A stretch of DNA of 64,000 bases from Haloterrigena salifodinae (GTDB lineage: Archaea > Halobacteriota > Halobacteria > Halobacteriales > Natrialbaceae), in NCBI RefSeq assembly GCF_003977755.1, contig NZ_RQWN01000001.1, forward strand, positions 512,995 to 576,994, written 5' to 3'. The notes below the pieces were generated by a model, which saw only the letters and a program-made list of their open reading frames with translations, was not told the DNA's origin and ran no database searches. The position numbers and the translations under genes were made by a program. Position 1 is the first letter of the stretch; each line of letters opens with the position of its first letter. Shown piece after piece: positions 12,906 to 44,540 of the stretch.

Positions 12906-13855
12906 CGGCGATCGCTCCCTCCCCCGCCGCGTTCGATCCGTGGGTCGAGCGCGACGTACGCGAGATCGACCAGTTGGTTCGTCACGACGAAGGCGAACGC
13001 CGTCACGAGGACGACTCCCTGCACGATCGGGTAGTCGCGCGCGAAGATGGCGTCGACGAGCAGCGTTCCCAGTCCCGGTCGTTGAAAGACGACTTCGACG
13101 ACCACGGCGCCGTTGAGGACGAAGCCGAACTGGAGGCCGACGATCGTCACGACGGGAACGAGCGCGTTTCGCAGCGCGTGTTTGTAGACGACGAGCCGTT
13201 CGCGAACGCCCTTCGAACGGGCGGCCGTCACGTACTCGGCCTCGAGGACCTCGAGCATTGACGTGCGAACGAGGCGGGTGATGACCGCGGCCATCCCGGT
13301 ACCGAGCGTGATCGCAGGGAGCACGAGGTGGGAAAGCGTGCCGGCGCCAGAGACGGGCGTCACTCCGAGCCGGAGCGAGCAGACGAGGATCAGCAGATAG
13401 CCCAGCCAGAAGTTCGGCATCGAGACGCCGACCAGCGCGGCGATCTGACCGGTCCGGTCGATCCACGTCTCGTGGTGGACGGCGCTGACGACGCCCAGCG
13501 GGACGGCCACTACCAGCGCGACGGCCGTCGCCGCCAGCGCGAGTTCGAGCGTGTTCGGCAGGTGCTCGACCAACAGCGACGTGACGGGTTCCGACTGGTA
13601 GTACGACGTCCCGAGGTCGCCCCGAACCGCGTCGCCGAGCCACGAGCAATAGCGGACGACGAACGGCTCGTCGAACCCGTGTTCGGCACGGAAGGCCGCG
13701 ACCTCGCGCTCCGACGGCGGGCTCTGTCGCTGCTCTCGGAGGATCGTGTACGCCGGATCGCCGGGCGTGAGGGAAACGAAGCCGAACGTGACGAACGAGA
13801 CGGTCGCCATGACCGCCGCGAGCGATCCGAGTCGGGCGAGTAGGGCTCGTAGCAT
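12902..13855 (-). CDS. ABC transporter permease, DppB/NikB type
   Basis: 317 aa. The protein opens with a membrane helix (LAAVMATVSFVTFGFVSLTP), has the GDLGTSYYQSEPV family motif and an EAA loop (YVTAARSKGVRERLVVYKHA), and ends with a conserved NQLVDLAYVALDPR segment. It is the first secure gene of the importer operon. A 14-bp palindrome and TATA-like box lie about 210-240 bp upstream. The interval 13857-14063 is open from a GTG in frame but reads as a Ser/Arg-rich peptide unlike a halophilic protein. Confidence 0.93.
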   Translation of the reverse strand: MLRALLARLGSLAAVMATVSFVTFGFVSLTPGDPAYTILREQRQSPPSEREVAAFRAEHGFDEPFVVRYCSWLGDAVRGDLGTSYYQSEPVTSLLVEHLPNTLELALAATAVALVVAVPLGVVSAVHHETWIDRTGQIAALVGVSMPNFWLGYLLILVCSLRLGVTPVSGAGTLSHLVLPAITLGTGMAAVITRLVRTSMLEVLEAEYVTAARSKGVRERLVVYKHALRNALVPVVTIVGLQFGFVLNGAVVVEVVFQRPGLGTLLVDAIFARDYPIVQGVVLVTAFAFVVTNQLVDLAYVALDPRIERGGGGSDRR

Positions 13856-14063
13856 CTCAGTCTCCGGCGCTCGAGGACGAGGGTTTCGAACGACTAGTCG
13901 GTCGCCGGGACGCGAGAGCCGCGGAGGTGCCGCCGTTCGGCGGTCGGCCCGAACCGCGAATCGGCGGCACGGGACACGACGGAGCCGTCTCCCGTTGCGA
14001 CCGTCGCGTCGCGCTGGCTTCCTCGAGTCGCGCTGCGTCGATTGACACGGTAATCAAACTCAC

Positions 14064-14097
14064 TTTAGTTAACTAAACTTCACCTGATTATATTGAA
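14064..14097 (-). promoter_or_regulatory. TATA box with palindromic operator at predicted start site of importer operon
   Basis: TTTAGTTAACTAAA (14064-14077) is a perfect 14-bp palindrome. Reading on the minus strand, a TATA-like CAATATAA lies at about 14088-14095, which places the predicted transcription start on the palindrome. A repressor bound there would block initiation. The sequence resembles the TTAGNTNANCTAA style of DtxR/MntR-type operators, which fits a metal-regulated importer, but this assignment is inference. Confidence 0.5.
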
Positions 14098-14441
14098 CAC
14101 TTTGGTCGGATTCTCGATTCGCCGTCTCGCGAATCGCGATCCGTCCCGGACGCATTCTATTGTGGTTTCTATAGCAGTAATTAATAAAAATTGCTATCTT
14201 AACCACTTGGTTAATAATTGGGTGAGAGCGGTCTCAGGGCCGAGCGAGAGAGCAAACGGAAACCGAAAAGGAAGCGGAGAGCGCGGGTGAGCGGATACAA
14301 CGGTTGCGGAGAACAACTGTGTCGCTAACAGTAGATAGTAGCGCAGTTTCTTTATTCAGAACCTCGTCTGAAACTGAATCGGATGCTTCACTAAGTACAG
14401 ATGCAAATTGAACATTGGATCTGAATTCTTCGATAGCTATT
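14098..14441. other. AT-rich intergenic stretch with inverted repeats
   Basis: This stretch is much richer in A/T than its surroundings. It holds ATAGCA...TGCTAT (14171-14176 with 14192-14197) and TTAACC-ACTT-GGTTAA (14199-14214). No convincing gene is visible: the longest reading (minus strand, 14503-14234) overlaps the end of the lipoprotein remnant and has non-halophilic composition. Confidence 0.5.
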
Positions 14442-15217
14442 CTACACTGGACCCTCAATGAGTTCTCCATCATCGTTCCATTCGCAACCTTTTGCTGTTC
14501 CATATTCTGATAGTCTCCTCGAACGGTGATTTAACTCTCTGTCAGGAGAGAGTTCGATAACGCCGCCTGAATCCCATTCTTCATACATAACCCATGTGAT
14601 AACATTCGATAAATCTAACTCATCTACTTTCACTTCCGCTTGATAACTCCCGTATCGGTAGTTCTTATTGCTTCTTAGTGTAGTACTCTGACTTGTGCCA
14701 ACTTTTACTGTTTCTTCAACCAGTACGTTGCCCCTGGTTTCAACGATATCCGTAACCCGTTTATTATGGAGCGGGACGATATCTGCATATGTAACCCGAA
14801 TATCAAATGAGAGATCATCGTTCGTCTCGTTGCGTAGTCTTACTGGGTCAGTTTCGGGGAACGTCTCCGTGACGTAAAGACGATTAAGATGGTCATCTTT
14901 CTCTGTTTCCACGGTGTAATATTTTTGTTATCTTCCTCATCCCATCTAGTAAAGTAGGTGTTCTGGATGGTATACGCTTACGGAAGAACCAGGTTATCAG
15001 ATGACTTATATTCGCCGTTTAGAATTGCCGCTAGAATCTCTACTTCAGCGGATTCAGGTAAGCTAGAAGTTCTCACGTAAGGAGGTGAAGCACACTGCTC
15101 ATAGGTCACTACGTCCTTTTCGCCCTCGCCTGTCTTCTTTCCGCCCTCTCCATTTAGACATCCTGCTAGAACAGTTGTTATTGCCCCTGTTTTTGCGAGA
15201 AAATCACGGCGTTTCAT
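14442..15217 (-). pseudogene. Decayed haloarchaeal lipoprotein gene (stop plus frameshift)
   Basis: The start at 15217 encodes a Tat lipoprotein signal, MKRRDFLAKTGAI...LAGC, then reads to a TAA at 14978-14980. Past that stop the same frame continues sensibly (AYTIQNTYFTRWDEEDNK) to an A-run near 14925, where a one-base change passes into the frame that gives YYTVETEKDDHLNRLYVTE and runs to 14442. The second part (about 156 aa) is acidic, with beta-sandwich-like sequence and a WVMYEEWDSGG segment. Read together this is one about 250-residue secreted lipoprotein inactivated by a nonsense codon and a homopolymer indel. Base composition is AT-rich, unlike neighbours, suggesting acquisition by transfer. 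Confidence 0.65.
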
Positions 15218-15432
15218 CGTGCTCAGTAATTCAGGATAAACTACAAGTGTTTTCTGATGTGACCACTGGAATCCCTATACTGAACACGAGTTTCACGAAC
15301 CACACTGAATAAAGAGAGCGTATTACCAACTACTGCTAAGGGCCTCCCAGACGGCTAGTCTAGACGAACCGGGTAGACGCAGGGCCCTACGGATCCATAC
15401 TGAAGTCCTCGACCGTCAGAGCGAGGTACATC

Positions 15433-15681
15433 TCAAGTCGATTCGACCCGGATTACCGTCCCGATCCGGTCGTAGCGGACGCTCCCCTCGCCGGGCGGTC
15501 GGCCGTCGAGTTCGAGGTAGCCCGGTTCGATACCAGTCACCTCGCCGGTGACCTCGGGGTCGTCGCCGCCGGTTCGGTCGCGCTCCCAGACTTGGACGAC
15601 GTCGCCGACCGTCACGTGGTCGCGGACGAGCTCCGCGGCGCGCTCCTGATCGGCGTCGCGTGGAACGGTAAGTTCGGTCAT
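15433..15681 (-). CDS. Small conserved haloarchaeal protein
   Basis: 82 aa, acidic, beginning MTELTVPRDADQERAAELV. The segment VGDVVQVWERDRTGG and following alternating hydrophobic pattern suggests a small beta-barrel (SH3-like). No catalytic motif is visible and I do not know a function. It is divergent from the HD-domain gene at 15789 and lies between that gene and the AT-rich patch. Confidence 0.75.
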   Translation of the reverse strand: MTELTVPRDADQERAAELVRDHVTVGDVVQVWERDRTGGDDPEVTGEVTGIEPGYLELDGRPPGEGSVRYDRIGTVIRVEST

Positions 15682-15788
15682 GTAGCGGGGAAACCACGGC
15701 CACGCGGGTAAGTACCCCCGCGTCAGGTGACGGCTCCTTATAACTCTTCGAACGACCGTTTTTGTGTAATCGGACCGAACGGAGGGGT

Positions 15789-17021
15789 ATGACGACCATC
15801 AAGGACAGCGTGCACGACCACATCCGGATCGACGGCGTCGCGCGGGATCTCCTCGATACGCCCGAACTCCAGCGGCTCCGCCGGATCCGCCAGCTCGGGA
15901 CCGTCTCCCTCGTCTATCCCTCCGCGAATCACACGCGCTTCGAACACAGCCTCGGCGTCTACCACCTCGCCTGCGAGGCGCTGGAGTACCTCAACGTCGA
16001 CGGGCGACAGGCCGAGCGCGTCCACGCCGCTGCGATCCTCCACGACATCGGCCACGGGCCGTTCAGTCACAACCTCGAGCCGCTGACCCACCGGCGAACG
16101 GGCCGGTACCACGACGACGTGCACGACCTGCTGACCAACGGCGAGATCGGCTCGGTGCTTCGCGACCACGATCTGGCGCCCGACAAGATCGCGGACCTGA
16201 TCGCGGGCGACGGACGATTCGGCCAGCTGGTCTCGGGCGAACTCGACGTCGACCGGATGGATTACCTCGTGCGGGACGCCCATCACACGGGCGTCCCCTA
16301 CGGAACGATCGACCACGGCCGGCTCGTCCGCGAACTGACGTTCACGGACGGCGAACTCGTCCTGGACGAGGGGAACGTCCAGACCGCCGAGAGCCTGCTG
16401 GTCGCGCGGGCGCTGATGAACCCCGCCGTCTACAGCCACAGCGTCGCCCGGATCAGCAAGGCGATGCTTCGGCGGGCCGCCGAGCGCCTGCTCGACGCCC
16501 CCGAAACGGACGTCGACGCGGCGACGCTCCAGCGGATGGACGATCACGACCTGATCGCCGCCCTGCGCTCGTGTTCGGCGACGGAGACGTTCTCGCGCCG
16601 GCTGGACCAGCGGGATCTGTACAAACGGGCAGTGTGGGCCGAGATCGACGACGTGCCGGGTGGAATCATCGAGGCCGACCACGAAGCGGTCCGCGAGTTC
16701 GAGCGAGAGATCGCCGACGACGCCGCGGTCGATCCCGAGTGCGTCATCGTCGACGTCCAGAGCCGGCCGTCGATGAAGGAGTCGACCTCGAGGGTGATCG
16801 TCAACGGCGATATCCGCCGGCTGGGCCAACAGTCGCCGCTGGTCGAGGCGCTGCGCGCGGCCCAGTACTCCCAGTGGCGACTCGGCATCTACTCGCCCCC
16901 CGAGATGCGCGAGCGAGTCGGGCGGGCGGCCGTCGACGTCCTCGGGCTCGATATCGACGGCGCACTGGTCAGCGAGGTCCGGAACGGCCTCGACGCAACG
17001 CTGGATCAGTTCGTCGACTGA
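15789..17021 (+). CDS. HD-domain phosphohydrolase (dNTPase/SAMHD1-like)
   Basis: 410 aa from the ATG at 15789. Metal-binding residues of the HD superfamily are clear: NHTRFEHSLGV (His53), AAILHDIGHGPFSH (His85-Asp86) and a later Asp in DVDRMDYLVRDA. The opening KDSVHDHIRIDGVARDLLDT matches the archaeal/bacterial proteins related to SAMHD1 and YdhJ-type dNTP triphosphohydrolases. Probable role: hydrolysis of (d)NTPs, or of another phosphate ester, in the cytoplasm. It appears monocistronic. Confidence 0.9.
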   Translation: MTTIKDSVHDHIRIDGVARDLLDTPELQRLRRIRQLGTVSLVYPSANHTRFEHSLGVYHLACEALEYLNVDGRQAERVHAAAILHDIGHGPFSHNLEPLTHRRTGRYHDDVHDLLTNGEIGSVLRDHDLAPDKIADLIAGDGRFGQLVSGELDVDRMDYLVRDAHHTGVPYGTIDHGRLVRELTFTDGELVLDEGNVQTAESLLVARALMNPAVYSHSVARISKAMLRRAAERLLDAPETDVDAATLQRMDDHDLIAALRSCSATETFSRRLDQRDLYKRAVWAEIDDVPGGIIEADHEAVREFEREIADDAAVDPECVIVDVQSRPSMKESTSRVIVNGDIRRLGQQSPLVEALRAAQYSQWRLGIYSPPEMRERVGRAAVDVLGLDIDGALVSEVRNGLDATLDQFVD

Positions 17022-42110: not shown

Positions 42111-42260
42111 ACACCCCTCGTTTTCAGTGAATGGTAGCTTTCGGAACGATCCGGAGCCGGCAGACACCCCTCGTTTTCAGTGAAGCGAGTTCGGAGCCGC
42201 GATGAAACGGAAACATCCTCGCAACGGCCGGATCGATCGGACACCCCTCGTTTTCAGTGA
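42111..42260. repeat. Three origin recognition boxes downstream of orc1
   Basis: The 20-mer ACACCCCTCGTTTTCAGTGA occurs at 42111-42130, 42164-42183 and 42241-42260, all on the plus strand in the same orientation. The spacings are 53 and 77 bp. The sequence is identical to the box at 43695 and to the reverse complement at 43914. This fits haloarchaeal ORB elements bound by Orc1/Cdc6. Confidence 0.85.
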
Positions 42261-42290
42261 AAGGCGCCGACAAGCAGCAGCAGGACGCCG

Positions 42291-43574
42291 TTATATCGAG
42301 GATTCGGAGAGCGCGTCTAGAACGTTGCGCTGGTCGCTCGTAGACTCGAGGCAGGCGCTCATCACGACGTCGGGATCGTGCAGCAGGCGGTGGGTCCGGT
42401 AGCTGCCCTGTCCCTTGCCGCCGCCGGTGTGTCGGCTCTCGGTGATCTCCGGCAGCGTCCACTTCTTCATCAGATCGAGAACCCGCTGGTGGGTCAGCGA
42501 CTCGCCAGCGACGACGTCGGCGATGACACAGTAGGTGTCGTAGACTTCGCCCGTCGAGAAGGAATCCGAGAGTTTGGACTTCGTCAGGTACGCCAGCGCG
42601 TAGAGGGCGTACCGGGAGTGGGGCGTCCCGTTCTTGATGACCTGAATGGAGCGGTTGAGGTCGCTGTACTCGTCGGCCTTGCGCACGTGGTCTTCGGTCA
42701 CTCGATCGCTGCCGTCCTTCTCCGCGAGTTTGCCGGCCGAGCGGAGGATATCCAGCGCCCGGCGGGCGTCGCCGTGATCGCGGGCGGCGAGTGCCGAGGC
42801 CAGTTCGATCACGCCCGGTTCGAGGACGCCGTCCTTGAACGCGTCCTTGCGGCGCTCGAGGATCGCCTGCAGTTGGGTCGCGTCGTAGGGCGGGAAGATG
42901 ATCGGATCGTCCTGGAAACTCGAGGCGACGCGCTCGTCGGGCGCGTCGGTGTAGTCGGTCTTGTTGCTGATCGCGACGACCGCGATGTAACAGCCCGTCT
43001 TGCCGGCCTCCTCGGAGCGGGAGAGCTTCGAGAGAATTTCGGCGGTGTCGTCGCCGAGTTTGTCGATCTCGTCTAAGATCACGATCAGCGAGTCCGACTC
43101 GTGGAGGAGGCCGTCGCCGTCCCAGAGCGCGTCGTAGTAGCGACTCGCGCCGACGCCGTCCTTGGGGATGTAGCGGTCGGGATCGATCGCGTCCCGGACC
43201 TCGAAGGCCATCTTGCGGGCGGCTCGCGTCTCCGTGTTGTACTGATCGCAGTCGACGTACGCGGCCGTTAGATCGGTCTCCTGCATCTGGGCGATGCCGC
43301 GTGCGCGGCCGGTAACGTGTTTGGCGACGAGTGACTTGCCGGTCCCCGTCTTCCCGAAGAGAAAGCCGCTCTCGGGCGGATCGCCGAAGGCCGCCGGTTT
43401 AAGTAGCGCCTCGACGGTCTCGATCTCGCGGTCGCGGCCGACGATGCGGTCCTTCTGGGGCACGTGCTGGGGCCGGAGGAGTTCCCGACGACGGAAGATA
43501 GACGTCGTTCCGTCCGCCATCGGATCGTCCTGGAGTTCCTCGATCGAGGGCGTCGGGATCGGATCAGTTCCCAT
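42291..43574 (-). CDS. orc1: Orc1/Cdc6 replication initiator
   Basis: 427 aa from the ATG at 43574. The AAA+ core contains Walker A FGKTGTGKSLVAKH (about residues 72-85), Walker B LIVILDEIDKLG, and sensor-type SRSEEAGKTG. A C-terminal winged helix (about 330-427) reads AYLTKSKLSDSFSTGEVYDT. It binds ORB repeats and opens the origin in an ATP-dependent manner, then loads MCM. It sits inside an array of origin boxes, so it is very probably the cognate initiator of this origin. Confidence 0.97.
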   Translation of the reverse strand: MGTDPIPTPSIEELQDDPMADGTTSIFRRRELLRPQHVPQKDRIVGRDREIETVEALLKPAAFGDPPESGFLFGKTGTGKSLVAKHVTGRARGIAQMQETDLTAAYVDCDQYNTETRAARKMAFEVRDAIDPDRYIPKDGVGASRYYDALWDGDGLLHESDSLIVILDEIDKLGDDTAEILSKLSRSEEAGKTGCYIAVVAISNKTDYTDAPDERVASSFQDDPIIFPPYDATQLQAILERRKDAFKDGVLEPGVIELASALAARDHGDARRALDILRSAGKLAEKDGSDRVTEDHVRKADEYSDLNRSIQVIKNGTPHSRYALYALAYLTKSKLSDSFSTGEVYDTYCVIADVVAGESLTHQRVLDLMKKWTLPEITESRHTGGGKGQGSYRTHRLLHDPDVVMSACLESTSDQRNVLDALSESSI

Positions 43575-43595
43575 TAGCCAAGACTTTCCCGACGC

Positions 43596-43633
43596 GAGTG
43601 ATAAACGCACCGGACCGGATTTTCAGTGAAAGG
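43596..43633 (-). promoter_or_regulatory. orc1 promoter with half origin box
   Basis: On the minus strand a TATA-like GTGCGTTTAT (43601-43610) sits about 27 bp before the orc1 ATG, predicting a leaderless mRNA. Immediately upstream, TTTTCAGTGA at 43620-43629 (plus-strand notation) is half of an origin box, lacking the ACACCCCTCG part. Initiator bound there could modulate its own promoter. Confidence 0.5.
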
Positions 43634-43694
43634 CTCGAGACGGGCCACGAGAGTGAGTAACTCACTGATCGGGTCGCGGACGACGACGGTACAC

Positions 43695-43933
43695 ACACCC
43701 CTCGTTTTCAGTGAACAGCCGCGTAAGTGGGGATCCGTGATCCGCTCTTGGCTCGAGCCCCTTGATCGCGTTATTATATTATTTATTGTATCGGTAAAGT
43801 AGTAGTGTAGTTGTGTACTCACAGACGCTGAAAATACGCTTCAGTGAGCATTGCTTTCGCTCAGCGTTTCCTTTATACTACGGCTCAATCTTCGCACCCA
43901 CGGGTTTTCGTTTTCACTGAAAACGAGGGGTGT
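43695..43933. other. Replication origin core: ORB pair flanking AT-rich unwinding element
   Basis: ACACCCCTCGTTTTCAGTGA at 43695-43714 faces its reverse complement at 43914-43933. Between them, about 43770-43802 is almost purely A/T (TTATTATATTATTTATTGTA), a duplex-unwinding element; a CTGAA...TTCAG pair lies at about 43829-43845. Opposed ORBs around an AT-rich unwinding element beside an orc1 gene is the established layout of haloarchaeal origins. No gene overlaps this interval. Confidence 0.88.
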
Positions 43934-44396: not shown

Positions 44397-44516
44397 GCGG
44401 CTACGAACCATTTTTTCATGGCGGCGCGCTCGAGTCGTCACCGCTCGCTCTCGAGTTGTCGGAACAGGCTACCGCTCGAGCGCGCCGTCGAGTGCCGAGG
44501 CTGCGTTCGATGGAGC

Positions 44517-44540
44517 ACACCCTCGCAAACGCGAGGGTGT
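44517..44540. terminator. Perfect inverted repeat between convergent genes
   Basis: ACACCCTCGC (44517-44526) pairs fully with GCGAGGGTGT (44531-44540) across an AAAC loop, 120 bp after the zinc-knuckle gene and 64 bp after the tatA stop. Its location suggests a bidirectional terminator, although there is no T-run. The outer bases also resemble the origin box end ACACCCCTCG. Confidence 0.5.

Follow-up and report, generated by a model that had tools for sequence, protein, structure and literature searches.

A probable accessory replication origin built around orc1 in Haloterrigena salifodinae

The interval 42111-43933 of a 64,000-nt stretch of Haloterrigena salifodinae DNA (the window) can with good probability be classed among the orc/cdc6-adjacent replication origins of haloarchaea, as an accessory origin complete in itself. 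Its family is scattered patchily over plasmids and chromosomes, and it would fire from an opposed pair of boxes, regulate its own initiator through a half box and be restrained by titration downstream. The identity of the interval as an origin module is well supported from sequence, because its parts match those of a haloarchaeal orc/cdc6-adjacent origin and their arrangement is conserved wherever the module occurs. The original prediction had been of a complete replication origin that might mark position zero of the chromosome. Conserved parts and spacing uphold the origin module, while position zero falls away with an oriC1 that lies elsewhere.

The box array and its initiator gene

The module consists of the following features, listed with the orphan copy found in a relative.

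43913-43933, + strand: distal origin recognition box; G-string outward with respect to the AT-rich element; placed at differing distances from the gene among homologues
43763-43807, - strand: conserved unwinding core of 45 nt, CACTACTACTTTACCGATACAATAAATAATATAATAACGCGATCA, positioned at -233 relative to the ATG; the A/T-only run 43771-43787 falls within it
43695-43715, - strand: proximal origin recognition box, in opposed orientation to the distal one; 15 of 16 homologues have it at -140 to -142 relative to the ATG
43620-43631, - strand: half box TTTCACTGAAAA, at -57 from the ATG and without the full G-string; candidate Orc1 operator at its own promoter
43600-43605, - strand: TATA box TTTATC, at -31 to -26 from the ATG, recognised from sequence and alignment; putative promoter element
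42291-43574, - strand: orc1/cdc6-family initiator gene, 427 aa, ATG at 43574; TIGR02928 match, PDB relatives, ATG aligned in 16 homologues
42241-42261, - strand: downstream box 1, sense relative to orc1
42164-42184, - strand: downstream box 2, sense relative to orc1
42111-42131, - strand: downstream box 3, sense relative to orc1
G349:C3:366386-366634 (L210, about 1887-2135): orphan box-core-box module on the 492-kb plasmid of Natrinema versiforme

Five identical 21-mers ACACCCCTCGTTTTCAGTGAA start at 42111, 42164, 42241 and 43695, with the fifth present as the reverse complement at 43913. Each consists of the 20-mer CACCCCTCGTTTTCAGTGAA with its preceding A, and the 20-mer is exact in all five (42112, 42165, 42242 and 43696 read on the + strand, opposed at 43913). 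The observation of five identical 20-mers and one half box around orc1 is confirmed, the half box at 43620-43631 being kept in 16 homologues. The boxes occupy both flanks of orc1 at 33 to 356 nt from the gene ends. Those at 43695-43715 and 43913-43933 are opposed, end in GAGGGGTGT and carry their G-strings outward. When the 4.96 Mb genome was searched with up to two mismatches the five boxes of the window were found and nothing else; allowing up to three added two 3-mismatch sites, which flank a different orc paralogue on contig C2. As the genome-wide search gives only these sites and a reversed-pattern control gave 0 matches, chance is excluded as the origin of the array.

Judged from its sequence, the initiator is plainly an Orc1/Cdc6 protein. 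The reading frame scores 354 bits against TIGR02928, for which the cut-off is 181, and has PDB relatives in 2qby Orc1-1 (E=3.5e-48) and 2v1u (E=5e-48). Upstream of the gene, the TTTAT of the TATA box is invariant in the alignment of 16 homologues, and as it stands at -31 to -26 the orc1 transcript is probably leaderless. The half box TTTTCAGTGAAA matches at 12/12 letters in 14 of the 16 homologues and at 10/12 in the other two, always at -56/-57, which would place it just upstream of the expected seats of TFB and TBP. It retains the CACTGAAAA part of the box, with the full GGGGTG missing in most members. The excerpted text of PMC3936714 reports that an extended G-string is required for the activity of H. 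hispanica oriC1, so it is a reasonable inference by analogy that the half box is a weaker Orc1 site.

The GC-rich hairpin ACACCCTCGCAAACGCGAGGGTGT at 44515-44540 of the window, between tatA and a small zinc-finger-like gene, is terminator-like.

Conservation of the module

The anatomy was defined from an alignment of 16 upstream regions and a table of positions relative to the ATG. Three elements are locked to the start codon, namely the half box (-56/-57), the proximal box (-140 to -142) and the core (-231 to -234), and the distal box floats between -260 and -391. The layout of the cassette is kept across homologues in differing replicons and gene contexts. Each homologue has one to four downstream boxes, always in sense orientation, with three in the window.

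Across nine carriers the 20-mers are confined to this same cassette, with the single exception of an orphan ori module in Natrinema versiforme. This species has an intact cassette on a 414-kb plasmid, and a 492-kb plasmid of the same cell carries a second copy reduced to box-core-box. The orphan has a core matching at 39/45, adjoins an orc of another family and lacks its own orc1, the half box and the downstream boxes. Since exactly these pieces are kept, the ori part of the module can be delimited to box-core-box. Two carriers lack intact parts, which counts against the origin reading: the Natronosalvus carrier has a broken orc1 frame, and in Halostagnicola sp. A56 the half box is present while the upstream full boxes and the core are not recognisable.

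The unwinding element

The opposed boxes had been predicted to flank an A/T-only unwinding element. The boxes are as described, and the A/T-only character is limited to the 17-bp run at 43771-43787, the longest in the window, with the whole ~190-bp interval between the boxes at 52% AT. The 40 bp around this run are among the least stable DNA of the window, with 7 of 63,960 positions less stable. The core that contains the run is 36-45/45 identical in 14 of the 16 homologues. Elsewhere in the window, a low-GC island at 13001-16000 (0.51-0.57 vs ~0.66) holds its most AT-rich 60-mers and is a possible mobile element.

Within the same genome, a resemblance to the core was seen in the AT-rich region of a single further family, an accessory origin with the box TTCACTCTGAACGAGGGGTG (L009, G000:C2:703716-707936), at a score of 36 against a null of 16.8 (sd 3.0); other families gave weak resemblance or none. 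The idea of one unwinding motif for all origin families was rejected, full-length matches being at chance in most families. Words rich in TAG or CTAG are only mildly enriched.

A conserved element at this position has a precedent in Sulfolobus oriC1, where opposed ORBs enclose ucm, a short conserved element in an AT-rich region that is not merely AT-rich (PMC12141716). By analogy, the core of the window may play a ucm-like part. The gene for the ucm-binding protein is described as a recent acquisition in Desulfurococcales and Sulfolobales (PMC12141716).

A probable accessory origin and not oriC1

The suggestion that the site could be position zero of the chromosome is contradicted by the location of the universal haloarchaeal oriC1, which lies on contig C3 at ~522 kb. 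The universal oriC1 (Cdc6A type) shares with the window its opposed outward G-string boxes, its AT-rich element and a box near the orc1 start codon. It differs in its box word TTCCACTCGAAACGAAGGGGTG, its G-rich inner repeats, its universal occurrence and its contig, and no downstream boxes were found beside it. Every near-complete family genome (57/57) has the universal orc1, and 7/61 family genomes have the window orc1. The two are also far apart in H. turkmenica, which has the universal orc1 at base ~1,127 and a near-identical counterpart of the window orc1 (99.5%) at 2,503,286 (2.50 Mb). This genome was recognised as H. turkmenica by its contig C5, whose orc coordinates match those of plasmid NC_013747.1. 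It is therefore highly improbable that the window module is the main chromosomal origin oriC1 and the natural position zero, despite its full origin anatomy and five exact boxes around orc1. As the assembly is split into 11 contigs and the site lies 0.55 Mb into C1, contig numbering is uninformative on position zero. About 17 orc homologues and at least eight orc-origin pairs are present in the genome.

GC skew was computed on selected genome stretches. The predicted switch is absent from the site. Cumulative skew declines right through C1:556 kb, dropping from -679 to about -815 in the preceding 100 kb and reaching -1610 at the end of the following 100 kb. The real oriC1, used as a control, sits at a local cumulative maximum. 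Skews of the N. bangense and Natronosalvus plasmids were not above block-shuffled chance (p 0.15 and 0.39). With no switch at the window site, GC skew was dropped as proof of an origin; a captured accessory origin need not show one. The lowest cumulative skew in the 460 kb examined is at about 695 kb of C1, near the orc paralogue C1:680720 (L018).

Distribution and mobility

Close homologues of the window orc1 were found in 11/392 genomes of the order, on chromosomes and plasmids, and carriers include Haloterrigena, Natronolimnohabitans, Natrinema and others. Four homologues are plasmid-borne, in N. versiforme (414 kb), N. bangense (214 kb), Natrinema sp. SYSU A 869 (881 kb) and Natronosalvus amylolyticus (99 kb). 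A trxB gene adjoins the cassette in Natronolimnohabitans innermongolicus and in four further Haloterrigena genomes. In the remaining carriers none of the neighbouring genes of the window are nearby.

A Haloterrigena congener without the cassette (G315) retains only trxB nearby. A clean empty insertion site was sought in relatives and not found; in another Natrialbaceae genome (G002) trxB and the VOC gene are ~4.6 kb apart with no orc1 between them, and other genes occupy the gap. We infer that plasmid capture is the likely history of the cassette, and the most fitting reading of the module is an accessory origin of plasmid type that resides in a chromosome.

This reading agrees with what is described for haloarchaeal orc/cdc6-adjacent origins in the available portion of Wu et al. 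2012 (PMC3528665), in which orc1/cdc6 stands beside opposed G-string boxes around an AT-rich element. The window likewise has an intergenic region adjoining the gene, opposed G-string boxes and an AT-rich element. The pairing of a family-specific box word with its initiator and the patchy occurrence on chromosomes and extrachromosomal elements are also shared with the origins of that text. It gives 12 predicted origins for H. turkmenica, 7 of them on the chromosome. The window family, which is not named in that portion, may be among these predictions.

Downstream boxes and their orientation

The arrangement 3' of orc1 is similar to that of the Haloarcula hispanica oriC2-cdc6E locus with oriC2D, where extra boxes also lie directly 3' of the initiator gene and the ori lies upstream (PMC3936714, in part). 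The two differ in number, with eleven downstream boxes in oriC2D versus one to four in the window family. In the same excerpted source, the downstream cluster of oriC2 acts as a negative control, likely by titration, and the oriC2D array is devoid of ARS activity and reduces plasmid copy number. A second origin formed by the downstream boxes was considered and is unlikely, since the array is made of direct repeats, none of them with an opposed partner, and the array in H. hispanica lacks ARS activity. Another orc family of this genome (L014, G000:C2:27908-29059) has about 15 copies of the box TCGACACCTGGGGTG as direct repeats downstream, within ~860 bp, an arrangement that recalls oriC2D.

Seven other orc families, drawn from this genome and from two of its congeners, resemble the window module in layout and use unrelated box words. 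Box orientation was scanned without supervision at about 85 loci, with shuffled flanks as the null, and 119 of 124 downstream boxes proved to be in sense orientation and 5 opposed. The families with solid downstream boxes (F0, F3, F4, F7 and F9) are uniformly sense, and the clear exception is locus L165 (G076:C5:39163-40257 and its flanks), in which the downstream direction is mixed (<<<>>). Because arrays can grow by tandem duplication the independent sample is about five families. The sense orientation is thus a strong regularity, short of a law. No comment on the orientation of downstream boxes was found in the published text, as far as the excerpts extend.

Simple titration needs no orientation, yet the sense bias holds for 119/124 boxes and for all multi-box families but one. 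This could mean that the downstream boxes act through their orientation and not through titration, for example by anchoring a loop to the half box at the promoter or by giving a bias to MCM loading or to the direction of forks. We consider this rather unlikely, as tandem duplication can yield uniform arrays, with about five independent families to judge from, L165 is mixed, and titration is genetically supported in H. hispanica.

Proposed mechanism and the question of dormancy

In Sulfolobus, each ORB is bound by one Orc1 with a defined polarity (PMC12141716). For the accessory origin favoured here, the window Orc1 would bind its private box word, and monomers on the opposed boxes at 43695-43715 and 43913-43933 would recruit the MCM helicase toward the AT-rich element. 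The conserved core at 43763-43807 would then be opened and forks would depart both ways. Surplus Orc1 would occupy the three sense downstream boxes, which as direct repeats could not form a second opposed pair, and initiation would be held in check. The weak half box would be filled last, at which point Orc1 would damp transcription of its own gene.

A broader proposal, offered tentatively, is that haloarchaeal accessory origins follow a polarity code. All gene-side boxes, including the downstream ones, would point away from the core and a weak half box would stand at the initiator promoter, giving feedback and titration without a second opposed pair. The 45-nt core would be the haloarchaeal counterpart of ucm, and some protein would read it at a constant offset from the proximal box.

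Dormancy occurs among predicted haloarchaeal origins. The module could likewise be a dormant or relic origin, its Orc1 and boxes serving chiefly as a regulatory circuit or as a reserve that would fire only on failure of the others. The coexistence of at least eight orc-origin pairs in the genome and the absent skew switch are in keeping with this, and Haloferax mediterranei provides a documented case of a dormant origin (PMC4595724). Against it, the core and box spacing are kept within 1-3 bp across genera and replicons, a conservation which indicates that the ori part is still under selection somewhere within the family, and the orphan module retains only box-core-box. Dormancy is therefore judged unlikely. 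Replication profiles or ARS data for the window orc1 family were not found in the literature.

Significance

As a compact origin with one private box word, the module can be dissected without cross-talk from other initiators. The shared orientation of the downstream boxes makes the titration model testable, as under simple titration a flip of the array would have no effect. The conserved core bears on the question raised in PMC12141716 of whether an analogous factor acts inside the unwinding region in other archaea. For the haloarchaea at large, a perfect-looking orc1 box array is no marker of the main chromosomal origin.
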